From the NCBI GenBank assembly GCA_002964805.2, contig PUDQ02000068.1:1-33431 (forward strand): 33,431 nt of DNA. The letters are read 5' to 3'. The DNA comes from Trametes villosa. Taxonomy: Eukaryota; Basidiomycota; Agaricomycetes; Polyporales; Polyporaceae. Position numbers and translations under genes: made by a program. Positions 1-21,656 of the stretch are shown here, piece after piece (position 1 is the stretch's first letter; every line of letters starts with the position of its first letter). The notes beneath the pieces were generated by a model that was not told the DNA's origin, searched no databases, and worked only from the letters and a program-made list of their open reading frames with translations.

Positions 1-2
1 AT

Positions 3-2879
3 CAAGACCAGATCCGGATGGACGTTGCTCGAGCGAAGTATCGCTCGAAAATTGATCTGTCCGACGCCTACGAACAGATCCGCATAGTTGCGGAGGACGT
101 GTGGAAGACCGCGTTCGCGACGCCTTACGGGACGTTCGTGAGCGAGGTCATGCAACAGGGCGACACCAACGCCCCGTCCACATTCCAACGTCTAATGACA
201 GCCATATTCCGTGACTGTATCGGAAGGTTCGTCCATGTCTATTTGGACGACATTTTCGTATTTTCGGACTCCAAGGAGGAGCACGAAGAACACTTAAGGA
301 TAGTGTTCGAAAAGCTTCGAGAGGCGAAGCTTTTCCTAAGCCGCAGCAAGTGCGACTTATACTCCAAAGACTTGGATTGTCTCGGTCACCGAATAGATGA
401 CAAGGGACTACACGCCGATACGGATAAGATGAGCCGTATCAGGAACTGGCGAACACCTCGCTCGTATAACGAGGTGCAGCGGTTCCTCGGGCTAGTAAAC
501 TATCTGGCACATTTTATGCCAGATGTAACGGCGTACACATCGCCGTTATCGGACATGGTCCATAACGACCGTCCGTTTGTATGGCGCGCACTGCACGACA
601 AGTGTTTTGAGTCTATCAAAGCACTCGCGTGTAAGGTGCCCATACTGAAGCCGATAGATCCGGCTTCCACAGATCCCATTTGGTTGATCTGTGATGCGTC
701 CGTGTATGGACTCGGAGCGTTATACGGGCAAGGACCCGACTGGCAAACTTGCAGGCCAGCCGGGTTCCTGTCGAAGAAATTTACGTCCGCACAACGGGCG
801 TATCGCACCTACGAGCAAGAAGCTCTAGCCATCATGGAAGGCTTGTTCAAGTGGGAGGACAAGCTCATAGGACAAAAGCTCAATATAGTCACTGACCATA
901 GAGCTCTCGAGTTCCTTGAGGGACTCGAGCGTCCTAACCACCGTCAGATACGGTGGTACGAATTCTTGTCGAGGTTCGACAAGACGATTACCTATATTCC
1001 AGGTAAACTGAACAAAGTAGCGGACTGCTTATCCCGCTACTTCGAACACGACGACATAGAGGAACTAGCCGAAGATTTCGACTATGTTAACGCCGACTTG
1101 CGGCTAGATCCTGAAGGGGATGATCTCCCCTTCTCCCGACTCATCGAGCTACGCGCAGCTCGAGTGTTGCGTCGATCTGCGCGGAAACTCGCGCAGCTAG
1201 AGACAGATAACGCGCACGCTACACGCGTGCAAGAACCAATAGAGGAACGAGTCGTAGAGTCGGCTCGTTATGCTGCACACGCACCTATCTCGGTGACTGC
1301 AGCAACCCCGGACAGCGACAATGTGATGCTGTCGGACTCGCTATCTGCGGGTCCCTCTTTGCGTGTCTGGGTAGAAGGAGACGACGGCTTCCTGAAAGCC
1401 GTCAAGTCAGGTTATGTTAATGACCCGACGTTCCAGAAAATACTGGAACGGCCTACTCAGCATCGCGCATTCGTAATGCGCGAGGGTGTGATATACACCA
1501 AGAACCGTGAAGGCGACGAGGTATTATGCATACCTCGTGGTCTGTATCGGAAACGGGCCCTTCAGGAGCTCGTGTTAGACCAAGCGCATAGCGCGCTTGG
1601 ACATCTTGGACCTCAGCGCACGTCAGAGTACGTGCGCAAGTGGTTTTGGTGGCCCGCGTTACGCAAGGATGTAGACAAGTTCTGCATTTCGTGCGGCGTG
1701 TGCCACACCACAAAAATAAGTACACAGCCCCCTATAGGGCTGTTACACTCGCTACCAATACCTACGGTGCCATGGACGTCTATGTCCATGGATTTCTTCG
1801 GTCCGTTTCCGCCCTCGCACGGATACGACTACATATGGATTGTAGTCTGTCGGTTGACCTCGATGGTACACCTTATACCCATCAAGACAACCGACACAGC
1901 GTCAGACCTGGCGCTGGTCTACTTCAGGGAAGTAGTCCGTCTACACGGGCTACCGGACTCCATAGTCTCTGATAGAGACTCGAAGTTCACTTCCAAGTTC
2001 TGGAAGGAACTGCATCGCCTTATGGGGGCGAAGCTGCTTATGTCCACGTCGTTCCATCCACAGACGGATGGATTATCTGAGCGTAGTATACGCTCAGTGT
2101 CGCAGATACTCCGTGCACTGGTAGCTCCTGACCAGTTGGACTGGTATGAGAAGCTACCGATAGCGGAGTTCGCTATCAACTCTGCGGTAAGTTCTACCAC
2201 AGGTTTCGCTCCGTTCGAGTTGAACTACGGGTACCTCCCGCGTTCTATGAACGGAATCGGAACGGATACTCCGTTTCGAGGAGTGCGAGAGTTCGCACTC
2301 AGAGCCAAGGCGAACTTGGAGATGGCGCATGATGCCATCATCGAGGCGCGAGTGCGCCAGACACACTATGCGAATAAGCATAGGCAAGCCGAACCCGACT
2401 TTGAGGTCGGGGACAAGGTATACCTATCGACAAAGAATTTGTCGATACCTAAGGGTCGGGCACGAAAGCTCGTGCCTAAGTACATCGGACCGTATGCTAT
2501 AATTGAGAGCATACCCAGTACGTCAAACTACGTACTGGAGTTACCAGAAGAACTCCGGAACCGAAGGATACACCCTCGGTTCCACGCGTCGCTATTACGA
2601 CGCTATGAGCCAAACGACGATGCGGTATTCCCGCATCGTGAGGCGAAGTCGTATTACGACTTCGGCAATGAAGACTCCACCGAATGGTTGGTGGAAGAGA
2701 TTATCGGCCACGAGTGGAATGGCAATAAGTGCCAGTTCCACGTGCGGTGGACGATGGGGGACCATACATGGGAACCCTACGAGCACTGTAAGGAGCTCGT
2801 AGCATTAGACGAGTATTGTCGTCTAATGGGCGTGTCATCTTGGCGCGCGTTGCCCAAGAAAACATCCGCCAAGACTTAG
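3..2879 (+). CDS. Chromovirus pol: RT, RNase H, integrase, chromodomain (5' partial)
   Basis: Copies element RNA into DNA and inserts it in the genome. The frame is open from base 3, so the true start lies outside the window; the ATG at 18 is internal to RT (the preceding codons still read like RT). Counting from that ATG, YLDD of the RT active site is at residues 75-78 (bases 240-251). An RNase H domain follows (DASVYGLGALYGQ, then the E of EQEALAIMEG and the D of TDHRALEFL). The integrase has an N-terminal HHCC zinc finger (HSALGH, then CISC) and the D, D, E catalytic residues in SMDFFGPF, VSDRDSKF and DGLSERS. Next come a GPY/F-like module (YIGPYAII) and a C-terminal chromodomain starting at EWLVEEIIG, expected to guide insertion to marked chromatin. 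No frameshift or stop breaks the visible part. The coding sequence is packed with short inverted repeats. Confidence 0.95.
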   Translation, partial: QDQIRMDVARAKYRSKIDLSDAYEQIRIVAEDVWKTAFATPYGTFVSEVMQQGDTNAPSTFQRLMTAIFRDCIGRFVHVYLDDIFVFSDSKEEHEEHLRIVFEKLREAKLFLSRSKCDLYSKDLDCLGHRIDDKGLHADTDKMSRIRNWRTPRSYNEVQRFLGLVNYLAHFMPDVTAYTSPLSDMVHNDRPFVWRALHDKCFESIKALACKVPILKPIDPASTDPIWLICDASVYGLGALYGQGPDWQTCRPAGFLSKKFTSAQRAYRTYEQEALAIMEGLFKWEDKLIGQKLNIVTDHRALEFLEGLERPNHRQIRWYEFLSRFDKTITYIPGKLNKVADCLSRYFEHDDIEELAEDFDYVNADLRLDPEGDDLPFSRLIELRAARVLRRSARKLAQLETDNAHATRVQEPIEERVVESARYAAHAPISVTAATPDSDNVMLSDSLSAGPSLRVWVEGDDGFLKAVKSGYVNDPTFQKILERPTQHRAFVMREGVIYTKNREGDEVLCIPRGLYRKRALQELVLDQAHSALGHLGPQRTSEYVRKWFWWPALRKDVDKFCISCGVCHTTKISTQPPIGLLHSLPIPTVPWTSMSMDFFGPFPPSHGYDYIWIVVCRLTSMVHLIPIKTTDTASDLALVYFREVVRLHGLPDSIVSDRDSKFTSKFWKELHRLMGAKLLMSTSFHPQTDGLSERSIRSVSQILRALVAPDQLDWYEKLPIAEFAINSAVSSTTGFAPFELNYGYLPRSMNGIGTDTPFRGVREFALRAKANLEMAHDAIIEARVRQTHYANKHRQAEPDFEVGDKVYLSTKNLSIPKGRARKLVPKYIGPYAIIESIPSTSNYVLELPEELRNRRIHPRFHASLLRRYEPNDDAVFPHREAKSYYDFGNEDSTEWLVEEIIGHEWNGNKCQFHVRWTMGDHTWEPYEHCKELVALDEYCRLMGVSSWRALPKKTSAKT

Positions 2880-3126
2880 CGGATGTACGAAGCGCAACAT
2901 GCGCTTCGTGGTCAAGACTACCCGAGTGAGTAGTCGTGGTGAAGGACAGAGCACGCGCAGAGAGCGCGTGACCGTGAAGTAGTACGTCACGTGCAGACTC
3001 GCGTGCGCGAGGCAGCCACCGACGCGTTCGGACTCCGCCGGCGCTTTAAGACGGCGACCTCGCGAGTGCAGGGTCATAACCGACCTCTGCCACCTCACCA
3101 CCACCACCAACAACGACGCCCGCGCC

Positions 3127-5694
3127 ATGAACGACGCCCCGCAAGACAACACGCAAGCCAGCAGCTCCGGGCAGCAAGCCTCGGAGCAACAGGGGTCGCA
3201 ACCTGCGGCCCCTCAACAACAAAACATCCCCTTCCCCCAACCTTCGCAGTTCCTGCTGCCGCAACAAGCGGCAGCCCCCGCATTCTCGTCCATGCCGGGG
3301 GTAACCCACCCCCAGCAGTTCCCGCATGCCTTCTCGCAGGGCATGCCCGCCTACGGGTTTCCGTACGGCGGCGGCTTCCAGTTCCCGCATCAAGCGGGTC
3401 CTGCATTCCAGAGCGCGCCCAGTTCGAGCGCGCCGATGCCACAGACTGGTGGCATCCCCCTCATGCCCTTCTCGAGCATGACCTGGGCGCCCGTAGCGGG
3501 CCAACACTTGTTGGTCGCGCACAGCGACAACTGCGCTGTGTGCGCGGACTTTGTCCGCCACTACAACTCGGCGGCGTCAGACTCGACGTTCCGGGACGCG
3601 CAGACGCGCGTCCAGTCAGAACTGCAGCAGCGGTTCTGGCGGCACTTCGAGGAGCACCAGAGGGTGGAGGAGGGGAGGAGCCGCGATCGGATCGCGGAGC
3701 TCGAGGCGAAGCTCCAGAAGATGAAGGAGCTCGTCGACGAGACGAAGTCGATCCGGGACAGATACCGGAGCGAGCGCGAGGCCGCTCGCCAGGAGCGCGA
3801 CGAGTACGAGCGCGAGCGCGATGAGGTGCGCTCGCAGTTGGAGGCTGAGCTCAGTCGGGCTCGGCACAGGAGGGCGTCGCCTCCGCGCGACGAACGACGA
3901 CGCGACCCGAGGGAACTCAGCCCTCGGAGGAGGGATACTGCGAACGATAGGTCGTTCGCGTCGACATCAAGGAGCTCAGCGCCGTCCGCTGGGCCCAGCT
4001 TGATGCCGATCGTGTCGCTGCCCAGCGGGGCAGGACCATCGAGGACTGGAGCGTCGCAGATGACGACGCCAAATGTGGCAGGACCGTCGAACTCGACGGC
4101 GATGCCGACCTCGTCGACATCCGCGGACCGGGACCACCCTATGGTGGACTGGGAGAACGCGACGAGCGACGAGGACGACGACATCGACGAGAGGCGGATC
4201 GAGAGACTCGTCTCTCGAAACCGATATCGTCGTGCTCGTCGCGACACTGGCCCGGCACATGCTCCGGGTCAGGGCGCGCCGTTTGGCACGCAACCTCCGC
4301 CGCAACCAGCGACGGATGTGGCGAGGGTCCCCGGGTGGCCGTACTACCTATTGGCCCTCCCCACCGACTCGGACCCGCGTCTCGCGGGGCACTGGTACAA
4401 TTACGTGCCGGTGTCCGTCGCGGACGCCAACAACATCATCATGGCTGCTCGCCGTGATACGGGTGAGGCGGCTCACCGCATCCGCGACCTAATTGGTCAA
4501 GTGAACTCCCGTTCGGAGTACACAGGAGTGGCTGGTCTCAACCAGCTACAGTCGTCGTGGCGTCGAGAGGCGCCGCCGCCGCTGATCGCGGCGGCTCAAC
4601 GAGCCGACTCCCGGGGAAACACTCCCCCTGGACTCGAGCACGCGTCGACGGCGCACTTGCCGCCGCCGTCGTCGACCCTCTCGCGCAAGCGGACGCCCGC
4701 CGAGTGGCGGGAGGTCAAACTGAAGCTGCGTGCCCAGCGCACGGCGCCGGCCCCAAATCAGCCGAGCTTCAGTGACCCGCCTGCTGTGTGGCAGGCTTGG
4801 TATGGCGTCGATGAGCGCCGTATCCCTCAGTGGATGGAGCGGGAGCCAAATGGGCTTCCTACGACGCGCAGCGTGGAGTACCACGTTGCCGTTCGAGCGA
4901 TGCTGCCGCGCGGCACGCCACTGGGACCGCGAGGGCATTGGGTGACCCTCGCCCACTGGCTGTTCTCAGTGCCGGGGCTCTACCGTTACGTGGTAGAGCA
5001 GGGGCAGTACCCTGTGGGTACTAGCTACCACCCGGGCCCCTACCCCAACGACGTCGCAAGCACGACGTTGTTCCACCTAGCGCGCTGGTTTGCGGCGCGC
5101 GGTCTTACCCCGACGGCTGCGGAGCGGTTCCTACCGCTCGCGAGACTGTGCCGCAACGAGCGGAATGGGCGCGACCTTCGGTCGCTGCTGCCTCAAATGG
5201 ATGGCGGCCCGAATTCGACTCTCGACGTCGGAGTCGTGCCCAGTTCGCGGGACTTGGGACCAGTCGCCACAGGCGGCCCACTGCCGCCCCCAAACGCGCC
5301 CGCACCTGCGCCCGCGCCCGCACCCGCACCAGCACCCGCACCCGCACCAGCACCCCCGCAGGCGCCCGAGGCGCCTGCCGTTACCACCGACGACGTCGAC
5401 ATGACCGACGCGTCCACTACCACCGCCGCGACCGCCATAACTGCGGTCGCCGAACCGTCGAGCATTGCCTCGACCCCGTCACACGTAGTGGCGGGTACCC
5501 ATCCCGATGACGGAGTCCCACCTCCGCCGTACTCCCCCGCTCGCGCGATGGAGGACGTGCAGGAGGCACCTGTCGCCGGGCCTTCCCAACCGCCTGCCGC
5601 TACTAGCGACAGGCACGACGAGAGCGAGAACGCGACGGGTGAGCAGGGATCCTCCCCCCTCACCCCGTCATCGCCACACGACGACACCGCGTAG
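3127..5694 (+). CDS. Extra ORF of the chromovirus between pol and the 3' LTR, function unknown
   Basis: An intact 855-residue ORF on the pol strand, starting 247 bases after the pol stop. The ATG at 3127 is the first of a long open frame, with the favourable context gccATGa. Residues 1-125 are rich in Gln, Pro and Ser. A CxxC pair (C136, C139) precedes a strongly charged predicted coiled coil at about 155-248. A Ser/Arg-rich linker follows, then a more folded-looking region at about 398-690 with many Trp and Tyr (for example HWVTLAHWLFSVPGLY). An Ala-Pro repeat lies near 720-750 and a disordered acidic tail ends the protein. I see no signal peptide or membrane segment, so despite its env-like position it is not an obvious envelope protein. 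It has no protease or polymerase motif. I do not recognise the family; a structural (gag-like) or RNA-binding role is only a guess. Confidence 0.75.
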   Translation: MNDAPQDNTQASSSGQQASEQQGSQPAAPQQQNIPFPQPSQFLLPQQAAAPAFSSMPGVTHPQQFPHAFSQGMPAYGFPYGGGFQFPHQAGPAFQSAPSSSAPMPQTGGIPLMPFSSMTWAPVAGQHLLVAHSDNCAVCADFVRHYNSAASDSTFRDAQTRVQSELQQRFWRHFEEHQRVEEGRSRDRIAELEAKLQKMKELVDETKSIRDRYRSEREAARQERDEYERERDEVRSQLEAELSRARHRRASPPRDERRRDPRELSPRRRDTANDRSFASTSRSSAPSAGPSLMPIVSLPSGAGPSRTGASQMTTPNVAGPSNSTAMPTSSTSADRDHPMVDWENATSDEDDDIDERRIERLVSRNRYRRARRDTGPAHAPGQGAPFGTQPPPQPATDVARVPGWPYYLLALPTDSDPRLAGHWYNYVPVSVADANNIIMAARRDTGEAAHRIRDLIGQVNSRSEYTGVAGLNQLQSSWRREAPPPLIAAAQRADSRGNTPPGLEHASTAHLPPPSSTLSRKRTPAEWREVKLKLRAQRTAPAPNQPSFSDPPAVWQAWYGVDERRIPQWMEREPNGLPTTRSVEYHVAVRAMLPRGTPLGPRGHWVTLAHWLFSVPGLYRYVVEQGQYPVGTSYHPGPYPNDVASTTLFHLARWFAARGLTPTAAERFLPLARLCRNERNGRDLRSLLPQMDGGPNSTLDVGVVPSSRDLGPVATGGPLPPPNAPAPAPAPAPAPAPAPAPAPPQAPEAPAVTTDDVDMTDASTTTAATAITAVAEPSSIASTPSHVVAGTHPDDGVPPPPYSPARAMEDVQEAPVAGPSQPPAATSDRHDESENATGEQGSSPLTPSSPHDDTA
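5284..5361 (+). repeat. Ala-Pro coding microsatellite in the extra ORF
   Basis: A run of CCC/GCA/GCG/CCT-type codons alternates Pro and Ala about ten times (AP repeat). The unit is 6 bp, so length changes would keep the frame. It lies in the disordered C-terminal third of the protein. Confidence 0.8.
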
Positions 5695-5712
5695 GTGTCT
5701 AATCAACATCTT

Positions 5713-6150
5713 CGAGTGCATCCGTCATGCACTCGTCGTATACCACGACGGTATGACTGCAAATATTTGCAGTCCCCGTAGGAGACGATATTATCGTCTC
5801 CTCGGGCATAACGCAACCGATCTGCGTCAAAAATTGATCGGTTCGTCCGCCATAGCTGCGGTACTAATGTACATAGCCGCACCCCACGGTGCGCGCATCA
5901 ATAACCCAAAAACAAAAACACTACCATATCATGGTAGTGTAGTGGTATGACTGCTACTATCTGCAGTCGTGTATATATCCCACTGCACTGCTATGACCAT
6001 CCTGTGAGCCTACTTGGCTCACTGACTCATTGTATATATGAGTTGCGCACGCACTATGCGCAACTCTTTGTATCATATAGTGCTATGACTGCGAATATCA
6101 GCAGTCGTTCCTTTTATTATAATATTCTATTGTAGACCCGTACAACGGGT
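5713..6150 (+). repeat. Hairpin-dense 3' non-coding stretch of the chromovirus
   Basis: About 440 bases between the extra ORF and the polypurine tract that are almost entirely short perfect inverted repeats. Examples: CGAGTGCA 5713-5720 with 5728-5735; a 20-bp palindrome 5755-5774; GGAGACGATA 5781-5790 with 5792-5801; AACCGATC 5815-5822 with 5836-5843; ACACTACCAT 5918-5927 with 5931-5940. The stretch is AT-richer than the ORFs. No convincing gene is seen in it. Confidence 0.85.
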
Positions 6151-6153
6151 CTA

Positions 6154-6164
6154 GAGGGGGAGAG
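6154..6164 (+). other. Polypurine tract
   Basis: GAGGGGGAGAG directly precedes TGTAAC. In LTR retrotransposons a purine run immediately upstream of the 3' LTR primes plus-strand DNA synthesis, so this site also fixes the LTR start at 6165. Confidence 0.75.
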
Positions 6165-7139
6165 TGTAACGACCCTCCGCGGTCGTTACGGGTTCTTGTA
6201 GGACATAGCGCTAGTTGCGCTATGTCGCAACCAGTACCTGGCGCTAGTTGCGCTAGGATAAGATACCGCGTAGATATCATGTAGTAGATAGACGCGTACG
6301 ACGCGCGGGTATTCGGAGCCCGCGCGTCTGGTGAGGGCAGCCTTCTACAACTGCCCCACCATCTCCCGAGTACGCCGAGCCCTAATAGAGCCCGGACCAG
6401 AGTACTTGGAGACTGCGGGCATCAGGAGTGCCCGACATTCGTGAGTTTTACACTTGCACACGTTCTGGACTTGCGGGGAGGGCGCCCTCTGGTCGTGTCC
6501 TGCGGCAGGGCGCCCACCTCGTGGTTGCCCTCTTCCGCTCGCGGTGCGCAGGGGAGACTCGACGGCTCATGCTCCTCCGCACCGGTCGCGCTGCCGCCGT
6601 ACTCCCTGCCGCTTTCCCTGGGGCCAGCGTTGGCAGATAGGGCACCGGCCCCTCCAGCAGCGCGGAGGCTCAAGACCGCTGTCGGGGTAGTTTGCCGTGG
6701 TGGGGTGGGGTTATTTGTGTGGGTGTTCGTAGTTGCTCTGTGTCCCGCGTAGTACAACTATTCTAGGCGGTCAGGAGGCATATACCGGCCTCCTCGGTCG
6801 ACTATGCACTCGGGGCGAGGTGCCCCAGGTTCCATCTGCACCCGGCCTCGCCCTGCCGGCTTGAGCCTCTCGGCACGGCACGTCGAGGCCTCAATAGGCC
6901 GCCATTGGGTGATTTCGGAAAAGGGTGAACGTACTCGCTTTCCTGCTCAGGACAGTAAATGTGGGCTTGTACGGACCAACCCCTGCGCTCGCATCCTTGA
7001 GGTCGGGTTTGAGGCGAAGAGGTCGCGCGGTGCACGCTCGCGGCGGTGGTCAGCCGTCACTACGCTTGGCGGCGTGCGGCACAGCGAAGTAGGATTCTAC
7101 AAGTATGTGCGATTGTAGGGTTCACAAGACGTGGTTACA
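6165..7139 (+). repeat. Probable 3' LTR (right border tentative)
   Basis: It starts TGTAACGACC right after the polypurine tract, typical of Ty3/gypsy LTRs. The only later end I can pair with it is GGTTACA ending at 7139 (6-bp inverted termini TGTAAC/GTTACA), which gives about 975 bp. The first 360 bases still contain strong hairpins: GTAACGACC 6166-6174 with GGTCGTTAC about 6 nt later; GACATAGCGC 6202-6211 with 6217-6226; GACGCGCGGG 6300-6309 with 6319-6328; GGGCGCCCT 6480-6488 with 6507-6515. Without the 5' LTR the right end cannot be proved. Confidence 0.55.
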
Positions 7140-7237: not shown

Positions 7238-8980
7238 TTAGTTGTCGAAGTTTGGCCCCGGGAAAGGGTACGGCGGTGGCGCGCCATACGCGTGCTGCCC
7301 GCCGTGCATCTGCTGGTTTCCGTAAGTAAGTGCCGCGCCGTGTTGCTGCTGCTGGCCCTGGATCGGCGGGGCTCCATACGTCTGCATGTGCGGCTGGACC
7401 ATGGGCGCGTTCGGCGCCGGCGGGGGGTGCTGCTGCTGCGCCTGCGCCTGCGCGAAGACCTGGGACCTGTTGTGGCGACGTCCGCCTCCCCGCTGCAGGT
7501 TTCCGCGTTGCCCTCCCCCGCGCGCGCCACGGCCTCCTCTGCCCATCGATCCGTTGTAGGCGTTCGCGCTCTGGTCGTCGTACTCATCCTGGTACTGGTT
7601 GCCTAGGCTTCCGGGCGCGCCTTGCGCGTACGCCTGCCTGTGCTGGCCGGCTTGCTGCAGGCTGACGCCGGCGTGCTGCGGGTACATCTGGGCGGCGTTG
7701 CCCGGGTTTGGGTACAGGTGTTGCTGCTGCAGGGCGGGGTACATCCTCGCGGCGTCGTGCGCTCGGTTCTGCTGGGTAGGGTGCGCCAGCCCAGGGTGAG
7801 GCGCCGCAAGCTGTGGTTGCGGTGCCGCGGCCGCAGCCATCATGACCTGGCCGAGGTGTGCCTGCGTCGTGGGCTGTGGGTCAAGGAGGAGGTCGCCGTG
7901 CCAGCCTGGGATGCTCTCGAAGGGGCAGTGAAGGATGTCGTGGTCGCCGCCGTGGCAGCCCACGCAGCCGTCCGGGACGAAAGGATTTCCGGGGGAGTCG
8001 AGGGGGTGGGCGATCGGCGTGTGTGCTAGCAACAGCCTCCATGCTTCCCAGGCATCCGGGATGGTCGTCGGTGGCGCGAAGTAGAGAGCCGCAGACACGA
8101 TGGGAGGGGTGTCTCTAAGAGTCGGGGTTTCATGGACGACGACGCGGAGGTTCTCGACGATCTTCTCCGCGGCGATCCTTGCCTGCGGACCGTTCGGCTT
8201 GTTCGGGTCGTTCTCGACGAGCTTAACGATCGGGTCGAAGTTCTCGGGCTTGTTCTTGAAGTGCTCGACAGCCCACTCCTTGATGCGGGCCTCGTCCGCG
8301 TGCTGGAACCCGACGTACGAGTACACGTAGTCGCCGACCTCGTCGATCTCCGACACGAGGTGCAGGGTGATCCGTTCGAACGCCCAGACTCCACGGGTCT
8401 CGTGGATGGCGTGGATGCCCAGGGGTTTGAGTCCATGGACGAGCCATAGCTTGGGGACTTTGGCGAAATGCCCACGTCGCGGGGATATCGGGGGTGCGAT
8501 GATGTAGAATGACGAGTCGCCGACGATGATCGTGAGGGTGTTCCTCAGGAGGTCCTGGACGACGACGCCCTTCGCGCCGACGAGCTCGGTTTGTCCGTGT
8601 ATGAGGATCGCGACGCGCGTGTCCTTGTCGAGCTTCTTCCAGGCCGTGATCGTCTCCGGCGGGATGTGGCACGTGAGGTCGTACGGGGACTTGGTGTACC
8701 GCCAAGGCCATCCTGCGGCGGGAGGCTTCATTGCTCTTAGCCCTGTCGCCGCAAAGATTCGGTCGATCGTGGGCCACACCGTTTGGCTCTGGATAGTCCT
8801 CTTCTCAGCGGGGAAGAAGGGGTGTTCGACGCCCATGCTTCGAAGGAGCTGTGGACTCAGGCTCGAGTTCGGCCAGTCGCTCGCCATGTTGTCGAGTAGC
8901 AGCGCTCCCCGGTCAAGAGGCGCGTCGACGTCCATGTCGTCACACTCGCCTCGGTGGCCGCGATTCTCGACACCCAGCAT
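7238..8980 (-). CDS. Gag-like protein with CCHC zinc knuckle and RGG box
   Basis: A 580-residue intact frame starting at ATG 8980. A CCHC zinc knuckle (C-x2-C-x4-H-x4-C) lies at residues about 339-352 and is followed by CPFESIPGW. The preceding block contains IPDAWEAWR. This arrangement resembles an abundant Agaricomycete family of gag-like proteins that I associate with ORF1 of non-LTR retroelements (recollection of the family, not a search). The tail (from about residue 380) is Gln, Ala and Gly-rich, with an Arg-Gly block at about 476-508 that suggests RNA binding. No endonuclease or RT frame follows it before the neighbouring LTR, 99 bases downstream, so it is either an orphan ORF1 or a domesticated gene. 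An upstream acceptor (CGCAG before 8995) would splice in phase 0 to the unit at 9776-10844, so the true N-terminus may be much longer. Confidence 0.65.
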   Translation of the reverse strand: MLGVENRGHRGECDDMDVDAPLDRGALLLDNMASDWPNSSLSPQLLRSMGVEHPFFPAEKRTIQSQTVWPTIDRIFAATGLRAMKPPAAGWPWRYTKSPYDLTCHIPPETITAWKKLDKDTRVAILIHGQTELVGAKGVVVQDLLRNTLTIIVGDSSFYIIAPPISPRRGHFAKVPKLWLVHGLKPLGIHAIHETRGVWAFERITLHLVSEIDEVGDYVYSYVGFQHADEARIKEWAVEHFKNKPENFDPIVKLVENDPNKPNGPQARIAAEKIVENLRVVVHETPTLRDTPPIVSAALYFAPPTTIPDAWEAWRLLLAHTPIAHPLDSPGNPFVPDGCVGCHGGDHDILHCPFESIPGWHGDLLLDPQPTTQAHLGQVMMAAAAAPQPQLAAPHPGLAHPTQQNRAHDAARMYPALQQQHLYPNPGNAAQMYPQHAGVSLQQAGQHRQAYAQGAPGSLGNQYQDEYDDQSANAYNGSMGRGGRGARGGGQRGNLQRGGGRRHNRSQVFAQAQAQQQHPPPAPNAPMVQPHMQTYGAPPIQGQQQQHGAALTYGNQQMHGGQHAYGAPPPYPFPGPNFDN

Positions 8981-9296
8981 CCTGGCAGGTGCGGTCTGCG
9001 GGTTCTGTGCCGAGTTCTGTGGTCGGCGATGTGAGTTTTGGAGAGCGCGCTCGCAGGTTGTCGCGGAGGGACGGAGCGCTCAGGAAGGCGGACTTAACCT
9101 TCTGAGGCTGGACATGTGCTGAGACGAGCGGCGGGGCCCGAACAGCGGCGAACACGGGTAAGACAAGGAATAAGGAGGTAAGTACGCAGCAGGGACACGC
9201 ATCCCCCGTACCGACAGAGGTCTGGTAGGGCTACAGCGGTATGCTACGGACCCGGACAACGGGAGCCAAGGGAGAGGTCGGCTCGAAGGCGCAAGA

Positions 9297-11949: not shown

Positions 11950-12152
11950 GGTGCGTGGTGCAGCTTGTCTGCGTTGTACGTACAGCGGGCTTTATGTACA
12001 ATCTTATGTATCGTACGGTATGGATGCAATCTCAGATGGACTTGAAGGTGAGCTGCTTCCCATCTGTGCTTTCTTCCGTTCCTCCCTTCTGCTGTGGCGC
12101 ATGCATGTGTGCGACGCAGTTTGGGCGCATCATTGGTTTGGCTGGGTTTGCG

Positions 12153-12235
12153 CGGACGTATGCACGGACGTATGCACGGACGTATGCACGGACGTATGCA
12201 CGGACGTATGCACAGACGTATGCACGGACGTATGC
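12153..12235. repeat. 12-bp tandem array, seven copies
   Basis: The unit CGGACGTATGCA starts at 12153, 12165, 12177, 12189, 12201, 12213 and 12225. Copy six has one change (CAGACGTATGCA) and the last lacks its final A. The unit is four codons long, so several frames stay open across the array by construction. Confidence 0.95.
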
Positions 12236-13576: not shown

Positions 13577-16500
13577 TTACACGACCTGGGCCTGCACTTG
13601 GGCCTTCTCCTCGTCGTGAGGCGCATCAAGCGCGTCCTCCGCGGGCTCGGAGGTGTTCATGATATCGGGACGGTTCGAGGCGGGGCCCTTGTAGTGCCTG
13701 TGCCCGCCGACCGCGTACCAGACGCTGCATGAAATTCGTGATCAGCCATAGGACGTGCTGGAGCAAGATACGATGCTTACAGAGAGAGCAGGATGACACC
13801 GCCGGTGATGGGCTGTATTCCGAACCTGTCAGACTCGCGTTCTGGTCAAATGATCGGAGGTACCTACCGCAGCGTAGTTCATCGTCTCCGCGGTGACCGG
13901 AAGCACGGTCGGGAGCGCGAAGATGACACAGACGAAGAGGGTCCACAGGATGCAGTTCACGTTCGCGAACCACCCAAGCAGGCCGTCGCCCATGTAGAAC
14001 GGTCCGGGGACGAACTTGACCTCGGGGTGGTTCCGGTACAACCTCCGGCTGCATCACGGCCGTGAGCGTTGAATCGAGCATACGAAGATGCGAGCGCACG
14101 TACCAGAAGATGGGGATGATGTACGAGAGGTCGAGCGCCATGGCAGTCATAGCGAAGATGGCGTTCAGGGCAATGTCGCTCACCAGCTCGAGGAGGCCAG
14201 GGAGGATGCCAATAAGCGTGACGAACCAGATGGCGCGGAGGGGGGTCTGCGTCCACGAGCTAACGTAGCCGAAGTAGCCGCCGTCGGGAAGACCCTTGTC
14301 ACGGCTGAACGCATACACCGTGCGCGAAGCGGCCTGGAGAGCGGTTTGGCAGACGAAGAACGCCGTCATGCAAACGAAGGCCTGGGCACTTCCGTGAGTA
14401 TCACCCACGCCTGGATCGTACGAGAGAACAGACGTACCCAAAGGAAGAGGGCGCCGGTCTTGCCCATGCGCAGAGCCATGATCTAGAATTTACGAGGAAA
14501 ATCAGCTTTATTTTCCTGGATGCGAGGCCGAGCTATCGGCGCGCATGGCGCCGCCAGCAGAGGTGCACGAGTCAGAGCTTGACTCTACCAAGTCAAACGG
14601 AGCTGATGTCCGACCAAAAATCCGACACTGGGTCAACCGCAGACGAGGCAGAGGTCAAGGGATTCGCACGTAGATGCAGTAGACCCTGGGGTCAACGTTC
14701 CCCGACGCACCCCGCAACCTGGTTGAACCCTGTCCCGCCAAGGTCGCACATGTCTCGATGCTCTCATGGGTTGACCCCGACCGCATGTCATCGTTTTGCG
14801 ACCGACGGTCTGGCCAGCTCTAGCACACCTCTCTGTCTCGCAGCACCCGGCGGATCGACATCACGTACCTCGAGGAAAGCGGAGCCGGAGGGACCGGGAA
14901 GGTTCTCCCTGTAACCACGGTCAGTACCGTCATCAACCAAACATGCTACGGGGGCTTACAGAGGGCCCGAGCACAGGACCACCACGATGTTGAGAAGCCA
15001 GCCGATAAGACCGGTGCCGATAACTACAGGCACGGACTTCATGTTAAAGAGAAGAATCGCAGACCGAAAGAAGTAGCACATACCGGCGATGAAGATAGCA
15101 GAAGGAGCAGCGTATGCAGCGCGCTTCACTTCCTCTCTATAGCACAAATTAAGCTAACGTGAAGATGAGCTTTCGATAGAAACTTACGAGATATGCGCCG
15201 TCGCATCGTAGTCCTACGTGACCACCCACCTCGTTAACTACGGTATATGCATATCTCGGTAAAAGTAACTCACGGTCATCTGTGAAAGGGCCGATCAGCG
15301 CCATATGTTATAAACGGGTTTCAACTTAGACGTACCGTCCACTGCACGCTCAGCAGGCCGAAGAGGAATGCGATGCCATCGTTCCAGCCGCCGGTCTGGT
15401 TGACGATACCCTCAGAACCGAAAACGTACGCCGCGCTGTGCATCTCGCTCCTGGGCGTGGTGGCCAAAAGAACGATGATGATAACTGCGAAGCTGTCAGT
15501 GCCCATGCTGTGCACACGCGACTTATAGATGACTTGTGACTTACGGAATGTAGCGCCCAGGTTCACGAAGACGAAGCCAGTGGTAAGACGCGCGAGTTGG
15601 CGGGTCGCAAGGCAGTTCTGCACGTCCTGTCAACAATACGAAGTCGCAAGCCATCTTTCAAGAAGCGTACCAGGATTCCGTGAATGATGAGCAATCCTAC
15701 AAAGAGGCCGACCTTCATGCCAGCAGTGATGTGGAAGTCGTCTCCCTGCACCAACCGTCAGAACCCACTCTGACGCGAGACGGACGGGTACTGACCTTGC
15801 CAACCACTACCGCAGCCCAAATCATGTTCGCCAGACCGAACTCGGTAGAGGACAGCCCGAGGATTTGGCCGAGGATGTTCAACCATCCGACAATCCATCC
15901 GACGATAGGACGCTGCCGCTTCGGAACGAGCTGTGCAGAGGCGGTGTACCTACGATTCTGTTAGACTATGCTCGCGAGAGCACGTAAGGGCACTTACAAG
16001 CCTCCGCAGGTCGGGAAAGCGCTGACAATCTCCGCGATACTGGCACCTGCAAAGCCGTTAGTACGCTTTCGAGGCAGGTGTCCATAGCAATCCAGATATT
16101 GTGAACGAGCTCCCGCTAGCACCACTACGCCTTCACAATGACCACCCACCCTGACCAGATCGGAATGTCAGATGAAAGGCTTCCCCGGATTCCAGATGCG
16201 CCGCCGACATGCGCATCCCTTTCACATAAATCCGTAAGGCTCATACAAGACGGATGCAGGTACCAGCTCGCGGGTGAAGGTTTCCCGCGGGCCCGAAGGG
16301 ACACTTCGACCGGAACGGTTCACGCTGCGTTAACTCCGTACGATGCGCCGCGTTGGCTTGCGATTGCCTTGGAGGCGCAACGCACGATCGAACGGTGCTC
16401 AAGCATGACCTAATGGTGAATTCCACTAACGCGCCGGTGAGCGCGCCGCTGGACCCGCGAGTACGCGCATACGACGGGTACGCGCCTTCATAGCCCAACC

Positions 16501-17183
16501 CGTCCACAGTATACCCTGCTTGAGCAGCTCCCCACTCCCTGCTCCGTACGCAGAGGGTCCTGACCGCTTCAAGAAGACGGTGTGCTATGCCAAGTCATGC
16601 GGTCGAATTTGAGGACCGCTGCCGTACACGGCGCGCCCAAAGCCGTATCCGGCGACGGAACATACGCGCGCTCCGTTCCGACTTCGCTTCCCGACTCCGG
16701 AACTGAGCACACGGATTCGGGGTGCCCCCGTGACGACTGCGATCTCACTCCGAAGAAGAGCGGACAGCCGGTGCGTCATTTTGGACTAGCGACGTCAAGC
16801 GTGGTGCAGGCGGGCGCTGTGAGATACGAGGGGACGAGCGCGATACGCACCGAGGGTGAAGCACATCGTCGCGCCGAGGATCCAGCACCATGTTACGGAG
16901 GCAGGCCCACCGAGCAGCATGGGCGAGTTGAAGGTGGTCGCTACACTCGAGCAAAGGCCCATGATGCTGAACGCGAAGCTGATCTGTACTACTGTCAGTG
17001 CATCATCCTCCAGGGTGATTTCTGTGTGATGCGTACCGTTGCGACATTGGAGAACTCGCGCTTGAACGAGGGGACGTAGCCGATCTCGAGCAGCTTGTTG
17101 TCGTCGCCGGAGTCGTCACTGCTGTCCCCGAGCGAACGGGTGTCGGCCTGAGCATCCTTCTTTTCGGAGAGGGGGGGAGACAT
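13577..17183 (-). CDS. APC-family amino-acid permease, 17 exons
   Basis: A plasma-membrane type transporter, probably for amino acids or GABA. Exons (5' to 3'): 17183-17037, 16983-16851, 16046-15998, 15949-15796, 15745-15671, 15617-15545, 15484-15336, 15279-15274, 15213-15188, 15136-15084, 15023-14960, 14908-14869, 14482-14438, 14381-14104, 14048-13868, 13812-13781, 13724-13577. They total 1653 nt (550 residues), in frame throughout and of normal family length. Motifs of the fungal APC group appear in order: a soluble N-terminus, SFAFSIMGLCSSVATTF, GGPASVTWCWILGATM, VSAFPTCGGLYTASAQ, QWTMTDYDATAHISEE, SRTVYAFSRDKGLPD and IFCRRLYRNHPEV. About 12 membrane helices are expected. Introns are 48-60 nt except intron 2 (804 nt) and intron 12 (386 nt). 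Exon 8 is only 6 nt. The ATG at 17183 was chosen because it opens the frame leading to the typical GYVPSFKREFSNVAT. The exact substrate cannot be read from sequence. Confidence 0.93.
14483..14868 (-). other. Oversized intron 12 of the permease
   Basis: 386 nt between the exon ending LPGPSGSAFLE and the exon starting IMALRMGKTG, against 48-60 nt for 14 sister introns. It contains several GGTCAA/TTGACC cores, with GGGTCAACC at 14630-14638 inverted as GGTTGACCC at 14769-14777. This suggests a small inserted element. Donor GTACGT and acceptor TTCTAG are intact. Confidence 0.7.
16047..16850 (-). other. Oversized intron 2 of the permease
   Basis: 804 nt between the exon ending MCFTL and the exon starting ASIAEIVSAFP. 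Donor GTGCGT and acceptor TTGCAG are good and the frame is kept (split Gly codon). No coding content or clear terminal repeats were seen. An insertion into a normal 50-60 nt intron is the simplest explanation. Confidence 0.65.
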
Positions 17184-18494
17184 GATGGCGGGGCGAAAGG
17201 AGGGTGGAAGGAGCTGGCGGGCGACTGAGGCAGATAACGAGAGCCGCTGAGCAGATGGCTGCGAACGAAGAGCGGGAGGAGGAGGGGGTCGCGTGCCAAG
17301 CTGCCACACTTTTCGCAGGCGCCCGGCGCAGAATCAAGTGCGCACCGCGCGACACGGTGTCGGCCGGCACTTCGAGGCACCGCGGCGGCGTCGGCGACCC
17401 CGGCGCGGCCAGATGCGTCCTTGACCGACGCCTCGACGCCGCCATCTGCGTTTTTGCTGGGGGTTTTCACTTGGAAACTGTTCTGCCGCCCTTGGCCCCG
17501 CCCCCGCGTCCTGTCGCGTCCAATCACGACGCACGTGCGTCGTTATCAGTCACGTATGGTGTGACACACTCATCCGTCACACGATCACCGATCCGATCGT
17601 TTTGCGCGCTCCCGCGACAACTCTCTCTCGACGCAACGCCGCCCAGTGTACTACTTACTAGCCTTGGTTGTACTCCTCGCAAAGCTGCTGCTTCATTCAC
17701 TGTTTGTTCGGCTATGGAATTTAGAGCAAAACTCGAGGGTGAACTGTAGTCTACCTCCACAAGAGTATGTGATTTCATGATAAACCTCACGTCAACTCGT
17801 CACCGCCTCCCTTGATTGTTCCGTGGGCACACGCTTTTTGGGACCGCCGTCGAATACAAACCCTTTATGCTCTTGAATCGGGCGTTGAAGCTTCAAGCTT
17901 CATTATCTAGACTAAGTCCCCTCATACCCGAAGATACCCGAAGATAGAGAGCGTCACGGTGCTGGACAGCATATGCACTTCCGCCTGGTCTTGCAGGTAC
18001 GTCGGAGGGATCACCCCATGCACATGGAACGTGGTCTGACATCGTCAGGTCCGCGATGCATCTCGCCACAGCTACCAGATGCAAACCTTACAAACACCGG
18101 TGAAAGCAAGATTCAGAGGCTGCGTTACTACCGCATCCCCGAGTTGCCGTTACAAGGCGGTGCCGGTCAGCTTCCCCCCGGCTTTCATGCGCTTTACGCT
18201 TCTCGAACACGGATGCAGGTGGATCCCACCACATCGAAGCCTGTTCATCCTGACCGTAACATCCATCTGCTACGCTACGCGTGGCCGAAGCGTAAACCCT
18301 CGCTACTGGCTCCAGAGCGGTGAGTGTCGCGCATCGGGCGCGGATGTTCTTGCGGATGGTCGCAATTGCATCCCCGTTGGCAACTCGCAGGAACGCGCAG
18401 TCCATTTGTATAAGTAATACAGCCATGGCCACAAGCACTATCCGTGCCTCCTACCCCTCCCTCGAAGTCTACTACACCTAGGCCTGCATCCGAG
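17184..18494. other. Divergent intergenic region, no gene seen
   Basis: 1.3 kb between the starts of the permease (minus) and the MARVEL-like gene (plus), so it should carry both promoters. A TATA-like TATAAG lies about 85 bases before the latter's ATG and is followed by a C/T-rich run. Nothing coding is seen. Confidence 0.5.
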
Positions 18495-19276
18495 ATGTCT
18501 TGGGTATACGACTACCGCGTTTTCTCCTACGGTGAGCCATTGCATCCTTTACGTGCACCTTGTACATCTGCTGATCTGCGTTGAACCCAGTGATCGCCCT
18601 CGGGAGCGCGTTCGGAGTCCTGGCGGCGAGCATCGTGACGCTCCAGATGACAGACGGCGTCGACATGTCCTTCACCTACGCCAGGATGGGGATCGCCTCG
18701 GCGTCCATCACCGTCTTGCCGCTCCTCTTCATGTGCGTCTCCCCCTCTACCACCAATGTTCTCGAGCGTCCCACTGACGTTGCCTCCAACCCGCAGCCTT
18801 CTACGCGACTGCGTCAACCGCCCTGTCAGCTTCAAGACCGAGCTCATCATGATCCGTACGTCTCACTCCCTTCCTTCCTCCCGCGTCATCCCCGGTACTC
18901 ACCTCGACCCCACGCCAGCTCTCATGTCGGCGTTCTGGCTCGCAGCCGGGGGAGTCACCGTCGTCACCCGCGTGAACGCGTTCGGGCATGGCCCGTGCGA
19001 CGACATCGAGGACACGCACTTGAACAGCCTCTGCAACTACACCGAGCCCATCTCCACCTTCTCCTTCGTCCCCGCCGGCCTCCGTACGTACCTCTCCCAT
19101 ACGAGCCCCCACCGTTGTTCGAGAGATGGCGCTGACGGTGTGTTTGCTTGCGTGAAGTGCTAACGTACGAGCTGCTGCTGCTGCTCATCGGCACGCGCGA
19201 GGAGAGCCGCCAGAAGCCGCTGTGGGCGCATCCGGTTCGGGAACTCGGACCCGCCAAGCGCGAAGCTGGACGCTGA
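18495..19276 (+). CDS. Four-helix membrane protein, MARVEL-like
   Basis: Exons 18495-18531, 18591-18732, 18797-18855, 18919-19083 and 19158-19276 give 173 residues; introns are 59, 64, 63 and 74 nt and all junctions keep frame. Four hydrophobic segments are visible: VIALGSAFGVLAASIVTL, IASASITVLPLLFI, a segment around MSAFWLAAGGVTVV, and FSFVPAGLLTYELLLLLIG. A Cys-bearing loop (GPCDD, LCNYTE) lies between helices 3 and 4 and a short charged tail ends the protein. This size and layout match the small MARVEL-domain proteins common in Agaricomycetes, thought to organise membrane domains. The assignment is by pattern only. The ATG at 18495 is the first that leads into the spliced frame. The third intron's acceptor is the least certain. 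Confidence 0.7.
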
Positions 19277-19790
19277 GCTTTGGGGGTGCCGCTCCCGTTT
19301 CCGGTTCGGCGAACAAGGGTGGTGGACACTGGCATAGAGATGTCGGCTCGATTCCTGTATAATTCTTGTATTCTTCATGCTATGTACGATACCCCCGGTT
19401 GAACTGTTCAACTCGGAACCGTGAATCAGTACTCCTCTGTTAAAATTTGGCGCTGTTACTCAAAGAAGTGAGGCTATATATGTGTATCCATTTCAACCTG
19501 AGTCTAGGGGTCCATTGCTTCGCCTAAACGTCTGGCGGGTACAGTAGAATCGGAACCTGGAGGTGTCTACGCCCATGGGGCTGTAGGCTAGCGCTAATAA
19601 GTCCGGGAGATCTCAGATCGAGGGGCGGGACCACGTGGCATGGCTAGTAGGCGCCGAAGTACGCGCCCGCGGACATTTCGTGGAGGAGCTGTGCGGATTT
19701 CTCTCAGTTCCTCTGACCCTACAGCTTGCTTGCTATCCTTCGCTTGCTTTCTTAGTCGGCTCTCCGGGACTCGCGAAAGGAAGTGTCAGG
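19277..19790. other. Intergenic, no gene seen
   Basis: 514 bases between the MARVEL-like gene's stop and the chosen OXA1 start. It should hold the terminator of the first and the promoter of the second. I see nothing else. Confidence 0.5.
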
Positions 19791-21253
19791 ATGGTGATGT
19801 GTGCGGGATACATGGGCCGCCTCGGCGCGGTCGGCCTGAGGTGCGTGTTTCTAGGCTACGTCGGCGAATAGCCCTGGCTCACCGGTAACCCTTAGAGCTG
19901 CACGGCCAGCTCTTGGTACTCCCCAGGCGCGATGCTTGTCTACGTTTGGACTGCAGGTACGAGCATTGTTGTTGATCGCCTTCCCTGCTGAACACCCAGC
20001 AGCACCCCAAGAGAGCGCTCACGCGCAGTGACCTCCGTGCGCTTCCCTCAAGTACACGGACGTTTTTCTGGGGCTCGTCGAAGGCTGCTCCACCGGCGGA
20101 GAAGACGGAAGCCGTCTTGTCTGAGACGCCTACGCCCGAGGTTGCGCCTACATCTACGCCAGAACCTCTCGCCGCAGAGCCCTCTGCAGCACTAGACGCG
20201 GCCTCCTCCGCGCCCTCACCAGACGCAGCGCTTCCCCCAGTCGAGGTTCCGACAGACGTGCTCCCCACTGAAGTCCTCTCCGCCATCCCGCCAGCACTGA
20301 ACTACGGCGACCTCGCCGCGCTCGGACTCGCGGGCTGGACACCGGCAGGGATCTGCCGCTGGGGCATGGAGCTCCTGCAGGTGTCCACGGGCATGCCGTG
20401 GTTCTGGACGATTGTCGGCGCGACGTTCGCCTCGCGCGTGCTCCTCTTCCCGTTCACGGTGAAGCAGATGCAGAGCACTGCCGCGCTCGCGCCGTACCAG
20501 AAGGACATCGCGTCAATCCGCGACGAGATGGCGGAGGCGCAGAAGAAGAAGGACATGCTCGCGATGCAGCGCGCCGCGCTCCGCCAGAAGGTCATATACC
20601 AGAAGGCGGGCGTGAGCTTGGGGGGGATGGCGCTCGCGCCGTTCGTGCAGCTGCCGGTTACGCTTGGCATGTTCTTTGGCGTGAAGAAGCTGTGCGACTT
20701 GCCGGTGGAGCAGCTCAAGTTCAGTGGGTTTGAGTGGGTGCCCGACCTCACCGGCATCGACCCGACGTGGACGCTTCCTATCATCGCGACCGTCCTGATG
20801 AACGTCCAAATCTCGGTGCGTGGCCTGAACTGTACCGGCGCTGGATATTCCTAACGCAGGATGTGGCGGGTAGGTGTCAATGCGCGACCTTGTCGGCCAG
20901 ACGCCGCAGATGGGCCACATCATGAACTTCCTCCGCGTCCTCACGACTGGCTCCGTGTTCCTCATGGCGAACCTCACTTCCGTAAGCAAACCACTCTTCC
21001 TAACGCGTTCTACGCATGACGCTGACATCCCATCCCACTCCAGGGCGTGCTCGTGTACCTCATCTCGAGTATCACCGCGATGACCATCCAGAGCCTCGTC
21101 CTCCGCCAGCCCGCCATCCGCCGCGCGCTCGGCATCCCCATCATCCCCGCGCATCTCCACACGCCCGCCCCTTCGATGCGCGACTCTCTCCAGTATGCGC
21201 GCAAGTGGTGGAACGACAAGGTCGCGGACGCACGCGCTGCCAACCGGCCTTGA
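19791..21253 (+). CDS. OXA1: Mitochondrial inner-membrane insertase Oxa1
   Basis: Inserts mitochondrially and nuclear-encoded proteins into the inner membrane (YidC/Oxa1/Alb3 family). Exons 19791-19840, 19896-19956, 20000-20815, 20874-20981 and 21044-21253 total 1245 nt (414 residues), close to the known ~400. Introns are 55, 43, 58 and 62 nt. The N-terminus is Arg-rich with few acids and carries RCLSTF, as expected of a mitochondrial presequence. A Pro/Ala/Ser-rich linker follows. The family core starts around residue 166 (GMPWFWTIVGATFASRVLLFPF), then the helical hairpin with many Lys, a second segment (MALAPFVQLPVTLGMFFGVK), MNVQISV and a last segment GVLVYLISSITAM. ATG 19791 has A at -3 and G at +4; ATG 19812 in the same frame is the alternative start. 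The second intron ends CAGCAG, so two acceptors 3 nt apart are possible. Confidence 0.9.
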
Positions 21254-21656
21254 GCTCGAGATTATGGACGGGATACTTCGGGTTGCGCCCAGAGGAGGCC
21301 ACACAAACTCGCACGGGCCTAAGTATCGTATTGCTCATATAATTTGCCATTAGCTTATAGACACGACCTCTTCTCATGCTTAGTGTTACTCGAGCTCAGT
21401 GAGTGACGATGCGCTGGAACCAAGAGAGGAAGCATTGGATTCGAGTGCTGCAGTAGATATACAGTGCGAAGGGGGACGAACACTAAGTTCCGTGCGTGGC
21501 GCGTAGAGTACATGCTCTACAATATGGCGGGACGTACAAAGCGGCGACAGGAACTAACAGCAGGAGGCGAGAAAGCGCGAAGCCGGGCAGGGCTGTGAGT
21601 AGTACATATGAGCCCCTGAACGCGATGTGAACCAGGGAATACAACCCACGTCTAGA
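21254..21656. other. Convergent 3' ends of OXA1 and the TPR-J gene
   Basis: 403 bases between two stop codons on opposite strands. It holds both 3' UTRs; no gene is seen. Confidence 0.6.

Follow-up and report, generated by a model that had tools for sequence, protein, structure and literature searches.

Short perfect hairpins in large excess along a Ty3-type retrotransposon of Trametes villosa

The window analysed here is a stretch of 33,431 nucleotides from the basidiomycete Trametes villosa (assembly GCA_002964805.2, contig PUDQ02000068.1, positions 1 to 33,431 of the forward strand). It opens inside the pol gene of a long terminal repeat (LTR) retrotransposon, and we found that this element carries well over a hundred short perfect hairpins, spread along its full length. 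Throughout, a hairpin is a perfect inverted repeat with a loop of 3-12 nt, and counts are given for arms of at least 7, 8 or 9 bp (7+, 8+, 9+). The window's element and its close copies form family A, and labels such as L001 denote copies or loci in the T. villosa genome. The window holds the following parts of the element.

3..2879, plus strand: pol open reading frame (ORF), with reverse transcriptase, RNase H, H2C2 zinc finger, a weak rve match and an SH3 domain; 41 perfect hairpins with arms of 7+.
309..335, plus strand: hairpin with 11-bp arms (309-319/325-335) and a 5-nt loop, the longest within those parts of the element that the window holds.
2688..2816, plus strand: chromodomain-like C-terminus of pol (Pfam Chromo at 21.7 bits with E 1.9e-4, where the curated cut-off is 25.1).
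3127..5694, plus strand: ORF4, 855 aa, downstream of pol; 20 perfect hairpins of 7+.
5695..6164, plus strand: 3' untranslated region (UTR), with hairpin arms of up to 10 bp, for example 5713-5721/5727-5735.
6165..6452, plus strand: 3' LTR (TGTAACGACC...TTTTACA), with hairpins 6166-6174/6181-6189, 6202-6211/6217-6226 and 6300-6309/6319-6328.

The pol ORF, open at the contig start, matched Pfam RVT_1, RT_RNaseH, Integrase_H2C2 and rve in this order; the match to the integrase core rve was weak (27.5 bits, below the cut-off of 32.6), and a Tf2-1-like SH3 domain was also matched. Among the matches listed (the best 120 of 868), the protein relatives of pol include some from Trametes sanguinea, T. 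versicolor and Phanerochaete sordida, all Polyporales, and some of these homologues carry PF00385. One protein, P0003, with 1170 aa on a 6.2-kb contig, is 85% identical to pol end to end, and its DNA could show hairpins at a divergence intermediate between the family-A copies and a second family, B. Within the T. villosa genome (46.7 Mb, 140 contigs) there are at least 48 scored pol relatives, 30 of them, window included, at 95% protein identity or more. For ORF4 the Pfam search gave no match and two homologues were found, P0001 at 45% and P0002 (T. coccinea) at 37% identity; by eye, its middle is charged and coiled-coil-like.

The ends of the LTR were read from the sequence together with a genome LTR search and an alignment of 22 LTRs. 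It is 288 bp long and has 40 scored matches in the genome, window included; the element thus closes with the 3' LTR at 6452, not at 6520 as a preliminary description of this DNA had placed it. A purine tract at 6153-6164, which from its position we take to be polypurine-tract-like, closes the 3' UTR just before the LTR. The outer LTR ends enclose pol matches and are separated by 10.3 kb on contig C112 and by 10.5 kb on C3 (3.93-3.94 Mb); the element is about 10 kb long. From other copies and the window together, the full order is LTR, gag with a CCHC knuckle, an aspartyl-protease-like stretch, an in-frame TAG, pol, ORF4, 3' UTR and LTR; the CCHC knuckle scored above its Pfam cut-off and the aspartyl-protease matches just below theirs. 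As judged from the domain order and from LTRs flanking gag-pro-pol, which both fit, the element is a Ty3-type LTR retrotransposon (Metaviridae); with its chromodomain match below the cut-off, it is a candidate chromovirus. Pol is probably made through stop-codon readthrough or re-initiation, since the TAG between the protease frame and pol was present in all six copies examined (L002, at 829-831, and L006, L008, L010, L015 and L018).

The hairpin excess was measured against 20 dinucleotide shuffles and 30 synonymous-codon shuffles, in which both the protein and the exact codon usage are retained. In pol (window 3-2876) we counted 41 hairpins with arms of 7+, 25 of 8+ and 11 of 9+, compared with means of 1.6, 0.45 and 0.2 in the dinucleotide shuffles and 2.3, 0.9 and 0.2 in the codon-preserving ones; the shuffle maxima were 4 for arms of 7+ in both controls, and 3 (dinucleotide) and 2 (codon) for arms of 8+. 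The preliminary description had reported about 24 pol hairpins with arms of 8 bp or more, in line with our 25 against 0.45 or 0.9 in shuffles, and each of the 22 arm pairs that it listed is a pair of perfect reverse complements at its coordinates. The large excess over chance that it claimed is thus borne out, with neither codon- nor dinucleotide-shuffled sequences reaching a comparable hairpin density, and the excess is even wider than the visible part of the element to which it was ascribed, extending over LTR, gag, protease, pol, ORF4 and 3' UTR. In a piecewise comparison for arms of 7+ (genes against 20 codon shuffles, LTR and UTR against 20 base shuffles), hairpins observed and shuffled were 4 and 0.2 in the 5' LTR, 22 and 1.5 in gag and 17 and 1.0 in the protease/5' pol stretch, these three being counted in other copies, and 41 and 2.2 in pol, 20 and 5.0 in ORF4 and 10 and 0.3 in the 3' UTR plus LTR. 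Against dinucleotide shuffles, ORF4 had 20 versus 2.6, and window positions 5695-6520 had 10 versus 0.55. The flanking DNA at 6521-33431 was near chance, with 3, 12 and 9 hairpins in three blocks against 4.9, 5.9 and 5.3 expected, although the block with 12 exceeds its own shuffle maximum of 9. It was too strong to say, as the preliminary description did, that most of the sequence lies in a hairpin: in pol, 38% of the sequence falls within arms of 5+, as against 10% in shuffles, and 30% within arms of 6+. Of tandem repeats the element has two short arrays, which both fall within ORF4 (5295 to 5430), and they are therefore no explanation of the hairpins.

Sister families in the same genome differ in this respect. 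We tested 21 pol loci out of 37. The excess was strong in family A (41-43 hairpins), clear in family B (9-13 versus 1.1-2.3), in the B-like L036 (6 versus 1.0) and in L032 and L033 (11 versus 2.5-2.8), moderate in L034 (8 versus 2.5) and L040 (8 versus 1.6), and marginal in L030 (6 versus 2.3, the same as its shuffle maximum). Whole-locus counts showed an excess in L038 (20 versus 5.1) and L035 (19 versus 5.0), the latter containing a family-A fragment. This fragment, at L035 8138-8558, is 97.6% identical to family A and adjoins a hairpin-poor relative, which suggests nested insertions. Copia loci had hairpins at chance in the four tested, of 74 matches. As an explanation of the hairpins, base composition, codon use or chance can draw only on the GC-rich context of ORF4, which lifts its hairpin control to 4-5; with both kinds of shuffle, the host flank, the four copia loci and the hairpin-poor sister families all refuting it, we leave it practically no probability.

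Hairpin positions were compared between families as well. Between A and B, 13 of 25 B stems overlap those of A (null 5.4), with the register kept in 4 only, and between A and L032, L030, L034 or L040 the overlap in position was not significant. At A's hairpin sites the complementarity in relatives is about what sequence identity predicts, as judged by reading and not by a formal test. Two of the sites at which A and B correspond are these.

1516..1538, plus strand: hairpin 1516-1524/1530-1538; a hairpin also stands here in family B, where some of the pairs differ and the loop is longer by 3 bases (one extra codon, by eye).
1919..1935, plus strand: hairpin 1919-1925/1929-1935; family B keeps the register, with a T-A pair in A replaced by C-G in B.

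Because hairpin positions mostly differ between families, it is the density of hairpins, and not their exact site, that is retained.

The hairpins are accompanied by a large gain in folding energy, determined on 350-nt fragments relative to synonymous shuffles, with dinucleotide shuffles as a second control. The gain over synonymous shuffles was 35.6% in pol, 26.4% in gag and 16.6% in ORF4, and over dinucleotide shuffles it was 38.5% in pol; over both controls it ranged from 26-28% in gag and 36-39% in pol to 17-19% in ORF4. The comparison of folding energies proposed in the preliminary description therefore comes out well beyond either control for pol. In sister pols, with the synonymous control, the gains were 27.3% (L020), 19.7% (L032), 8.7% (L029), 8.5% (L034) and 3.9% (L031). 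The sense and antisense strands of pol gained almost alike, 41.4 and 39.9%. A difference in favour of sense folding was found in ORF4 (z -5.0), and in the other eight pieces it was weaker or absent (z -2.6 to 1.3). In the 15 full-length copies a manual count gave a lean towards G-U-forming over A-C-forming changes, 18:8. Family-A stems with one interior mismatch had 44 G-U (9 expected), 33 A-C (12 expected) and 41 other mismatches (44 expected). We read the hairpin signal as close to strand-neutral, with what appears to be a slight sense preference.

The geometry of the stems bears on whether folded single strands or double-stranded DNA may be the relevant form. Taken together, gag, protease, pol and ORF4 have no stem of 7+ without a loop, 2 with a 1-nt loop and 5 with a 2-nt loop, and 11, 8, 16, 16, 20, 7, 4, 8, 3 and 2 at loops of 3 to 12 nt, with about 0.3-1.3 expected at each; at loops of 13-30 nt there were 0-3 stems each, 26 in total against about 11.6 expected, so that a weak excess persists. 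The scarcity of stems below loop 3 and the peak at 5-7 fit single-strand folding and not palindromes. Eleven stretches (three from family A, two from B and six further loci) were pooled, and among their 532 non-overlapping stems (arms of 6+, loops of 3-12 nt) no arm exceeded 12 bp, and none in family A exceeded 11 bp; with loops allowed up to 200 nt, L038 had three 12-bp arms and L040 one 14-bp arm. This upper arm length is an observation and no proof of a cap. Loops are richer in A (0.30) and T (0.26) than linkers (0.24 and 0.19). No convincing motif emerged in the loops (best 3-mer P 2.9e-3 among 64, best 4-mer 5.4e-4 among 256), nor did one stand out in the stems, where the commonest 6-mer occurs in 5 of 174. 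The gaps between hairpins were not significantly more even than under random placement in any of six pieces, and Rfam gave 0 matches at gathering scores in window 1-6600.

Loop-free DNA palindromes were considered as a candidate and set aside, there being no enrichment at loops of 0-1 nt (2 versus 1.75 expected). The same count speaks against the proposal that the arms matter as DNA dyads, whether as cruciforms, as centromere-type non-B DNA or through a chromatin protein reading dyad symmetry. Strand symmetry, the chromodomain-like integrase end, a small excess at loop 2 (5 versus 1.05) and published links of dyad symmetry to centromeres, in the parts of those sources drawn on here, are in keeping with such a role, whereas on one 4.7 Mb contig copies occupy three separate places, with about 0.25-0.9 Mb between them, and hairpin-poor relatives share the same genome; we consider it very unlikely.

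Variation between copies provides the test for selection. Variants were typed in up to 22 family-A copies over pol and the first part of ORF4 and in up to 18 over the protease stretch, and sites with fewer than 6 copies were dropped. A variant in two or more copies, mostly passed through transposition, is termed inherited, and a variant in one copy, mostly later, is termed private. At third codon positions inherited variants were found at 11 of 515 arm sites and at 140 of 1235 sites in the rest (loops 30/223, linkers 110/1012), whereas private variants were found at 43/515 and 93/1235, and the arm contrast between the two classes is significant (P = 1e-7). By region, the inherited third-position variants in arms and rest were 8/295 and 102/663 in pol, 2/103 and 22/312 in ORF4, and 1/117 and 16/260 in the protease; at first plus second positions they were rare alike (arms 11/990, rest 29/2508). 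Outside CpG dinucleotides, the third-position counts were 8/375 in arms versus 118/975 in the rest for inherited variants (P 5e-10) and 18/375 versus 67/975 for private ones (P 0.17). Within CpG they were 3/140 versus 21/256 for inherited variants (P 0.015) and 25/140 versus 26/256, higher in arms, for private ones (P 0.04). Private variants are thus enriched at CpG relative to sites outside it, as would be expected in family A if methylated CpG decays after insertion. When the arm mask was shifted by 362 offsets, the lowest inherited rate was 5.9%, compared with 2.1% for the real mask, and each of the 15 full-length copies, taken as the reference in pol, gave 3-7 of about 290 sites in arms against 73-77 of about 665.

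Outside the family-A genes the constraint recurs. In the LTR (22 copies, columns with at least 15 letters), inherited variable sites numbered 3/77 in arms and 25/212 in the rest (P = 0.045), and one A-T to C-G pair, a double transversion inside a 10-bp arm of the second LTR stem, was compensated in copy L062 only. In family B (7 copies, sites with at least 4), variable third positions were 13/127 in arms and 232/825 in the rest (P = 6e-6), which supports a constraint on the arms but does not tell its possible causes apart. The private variants of family A, no rarer in arms than in the rest, lend no support to a mutational cold spot in the arms. Since inherited variants are depleted in arms and private ones are not, the arms are most likely held by purifying selection as the element propagates, and not by a low mutation rate. 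Of the expectations set out in the preliminary description, conservation of the arms between copies was thus found, and compensation was nearly absent apart from the one pair in one LTR copy, as expected at 1-3% divergence. Its suggestion of selection for structured genomic RNA stands in part: selection for a folded nucleic acid is supported by the variation between copies, and the words genomic RNA are too narrow for a signal that is close to strand-neutral.

Quasipalindrome correction yields perfect short inverted repeats on either strand, and template switching during reverse transcription could make or repair hairpins in this way, with protein selection as the filter and the hairpins as by-products. 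Perfect Watson-Crick arms, strand symmetry, the enrichment of one-mismatch stems for transition-type mismatches only (44 G-U and 33 A-C versus 9 and 12 expected) and the one compensated LTR pair would all suit such a process, and correction would likewise act at the transposition step. Template switching predicts clusters of change in one arm, an amino-acid cost and new mutations copied to the partner arm. At each of the three codon positions, however, arms have diverged from four relatives about as much as other sites have, and L001 differs from L015-L017 by 79-92 changes, most of them isolated and at third positions. Correction should, we would expect, copy changes to the partner arm about as often as remove them, and yet among the 41 variable pol pairs listed, none of the 29 in stems common to most of the 15 copies has two Watson-Crick types; one of the remaining 12 does, and its stem occurs in a single copy. 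Pol showed neither arm-to-arm copying nor multi-base templated changes, and the compensated LTR pair is the one exception in the element. A 40-bp insertion in the protease stretch of L012 was considered as an inverted duplication and is a direct one. With no extra change in arms, no compensated pair in shared pol stems and scattered third-position differences, the template-switching origin raised in the preliminary description is improbable as the cause of the present state, and purifying selection for folding, rather than correction during reverse transcription, would be the cause.

What the folding may be for is a further question. The explanation that we favour, still tentatively, is that the arms are kept by selection at each round of transposition for locally folded single strands, which would hinder antisense pairing and recognition by silencing. 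Many near-identical copies in both orientations could give rise to sense and antisense transcripts; with both strands pre-folded, long duplexes are predicted to form slowly. Dicer-type enzymes are expected to need more than the roughly one helical turn that an arm provides, and the folded RNA would then be likely to shield the element's RNA from host silencing, the predicted benefit. We chose shielding because it fits the strand-neutrality, the spread over the whole length, the irrelevance of exact position and the short arms. New stems would arise mostly through single synonymous changes, and the family-wide density of hairpins would matter more than any single site. A broader version, in which some Ty3-type families have recoded nearly their whole sequence (synonymously in genes, freely outside them) as a strand-neutral chain of perfect hairpins no longer than about one helical turn, a two-strand armour that would keep sense and antisense transcripts alike out of the long duplexes needed for silencing, gained and lost between families in an arms race with the host, is conceivable and rather doubtful.

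Packaging and compaction would rank next after shielding as proposed functions. Here the hairpins would serve the particle, short local stems compacting the genomic RNA or giving Gag many weak binding sites, for which dispersed packaging signals are the model. The presence of hairpins in every part, LTR and UTR included, the arm conservation seen in inherited variants and the CCHC knuckle of Gag are what this proposal would lead one to expect; the want of a convincing loop motif and of a stem 6-mer in more than 5 of 174 stems, the near strand-neutrality and the relatives with a recognisable pol and no hairpin excess are at odds with it, and we regard it as unlikely.

Several observations weigh against selection for folding and shielding as we have described it. 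That the hairpins form is a prediction from sequence, and their link to RNA silencing, which the preliminary description raised as a third possible cause, is a hypothesis. Over all copies, G-U-forming and A-C-forming changes are equal (arms 45:47, elsewhere 148:153; inherited only 10:11), and this parity counts against selection on the sense RNA only, because such selection should tolerate G-U better. Similar folding energies are attained in the RNA phages MS2 and Qbeta, whose perfect hairpins are few, and stability alone is therefore no explanation of the perfection. In family B private variants are likewise fewer in arms (10/127 versus 155/825). The private variants of family A are biased to third positions (16, 19 and 43 in arms and 53, 35 and 93 in the rest at positions 1, 2 and 3), so that some have been screened by protein selection too, yet they are not depleted in arms. 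Young, mildly harmful variants could account for this, but the split into inherited and private is not a clean one into before and after insertion. Finally, the pols of L029, L031, L035, L037, L038 and L039, in the same genome, have no hairpin excess. Such near relatives without the excess, in the same host and with related enzymes, offer a natural comparison for the purpose of genome-wide folding. If synonymous sites of a transposable element are under strong selection, this also matters for the dating of copies by synonymous divergence.

Beyond the element, the window contains on the minus strand, at 7241-9079, a gag-like frame of 613 aa with a possible zinc knuckle by eye and no Pfam match, perhaps of another element, in a block with hairpins at chance. 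A 12-bp tandem repeat of 7 copies at 12149-12235 is open in at least two overlapping plus-strand frames. Host genes at 13629-23239 comprise a piece of an amino-acid permease, an OXA1-like 60KD_IMP protein and a TPR (tetratricopeptide repeat)/DnaJ co-chaperone, all from Pfam matches.

Among known systems, the yeast element Ty3 is similar in being a Ty3-type element with a partly folded RNA genome, as probed by SHAPE-MaP (selective 2'-hydroxyl acylation analysed by primer extension and mutational profiling), its well-folded core making up about 20% of the RNA (PMC11381356). In contrast to family A, no hairpin chain is described in the sections of that report drawn on here, and hairpins, covariation and synonymous are absent from its main-text wording. 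Quasipalindrome mutation acts, according to the parts of PMC7202029 used here, at imperfect inverted repeats through template switching, whereas pol in family A has neither templated clusters nor arm-to-arm copying. In the open-access literature, as judged by titles and the starts of abstracts, with subscription papers and preprints outside its scope, no retroelement built as a hairpin chain was found, and no relative of the element was confirmed in the viral collection.

The best reading, as far as sequence comparison goes, is that family A would represent an extreme, perfect-hairpin form of genome-scale ordered RNA structure (GORS). From the portions of PMC7642675 used here, GORS viruses share with it consecutive stem-loops along the entire genome, a folding energy far past that of shuffles, a lower diversity at paired sites and pairs that are poorly conserved between relatives, comparable to the 4 of 25 B stems in A's register and 13 overlapping. 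The folding excess given there is 15% for SARS-CoV-2, 7-9% for hepatitis C virus and 23.4% at most in vertebrate viruses, compared with 35.6-38.5% in pol, the methods of shuffling being different. Unlike those viruses, family A is a retrotransposon with short, perfect stems and a signal that is close to strand-neutral. The single-stranded RNA phages MS2 and Qbeta share a large folding excess, 24-34% by our measure in two genes of each, but they have 0.8-2.8 perfect hairpins of 7+ per kb compared with 14.3 in family-A pol, and their one-mismatch stems are enriched in all classes of mismatch (non-transition 40 versus 21 expected) and not in transition types only. The purpose of genome-scale RNA structure is debated for the RNA viruses in which it is known; here a retroelement shows it, with perfect stems about five or more times as dense as those of MS2 and Qbeta.

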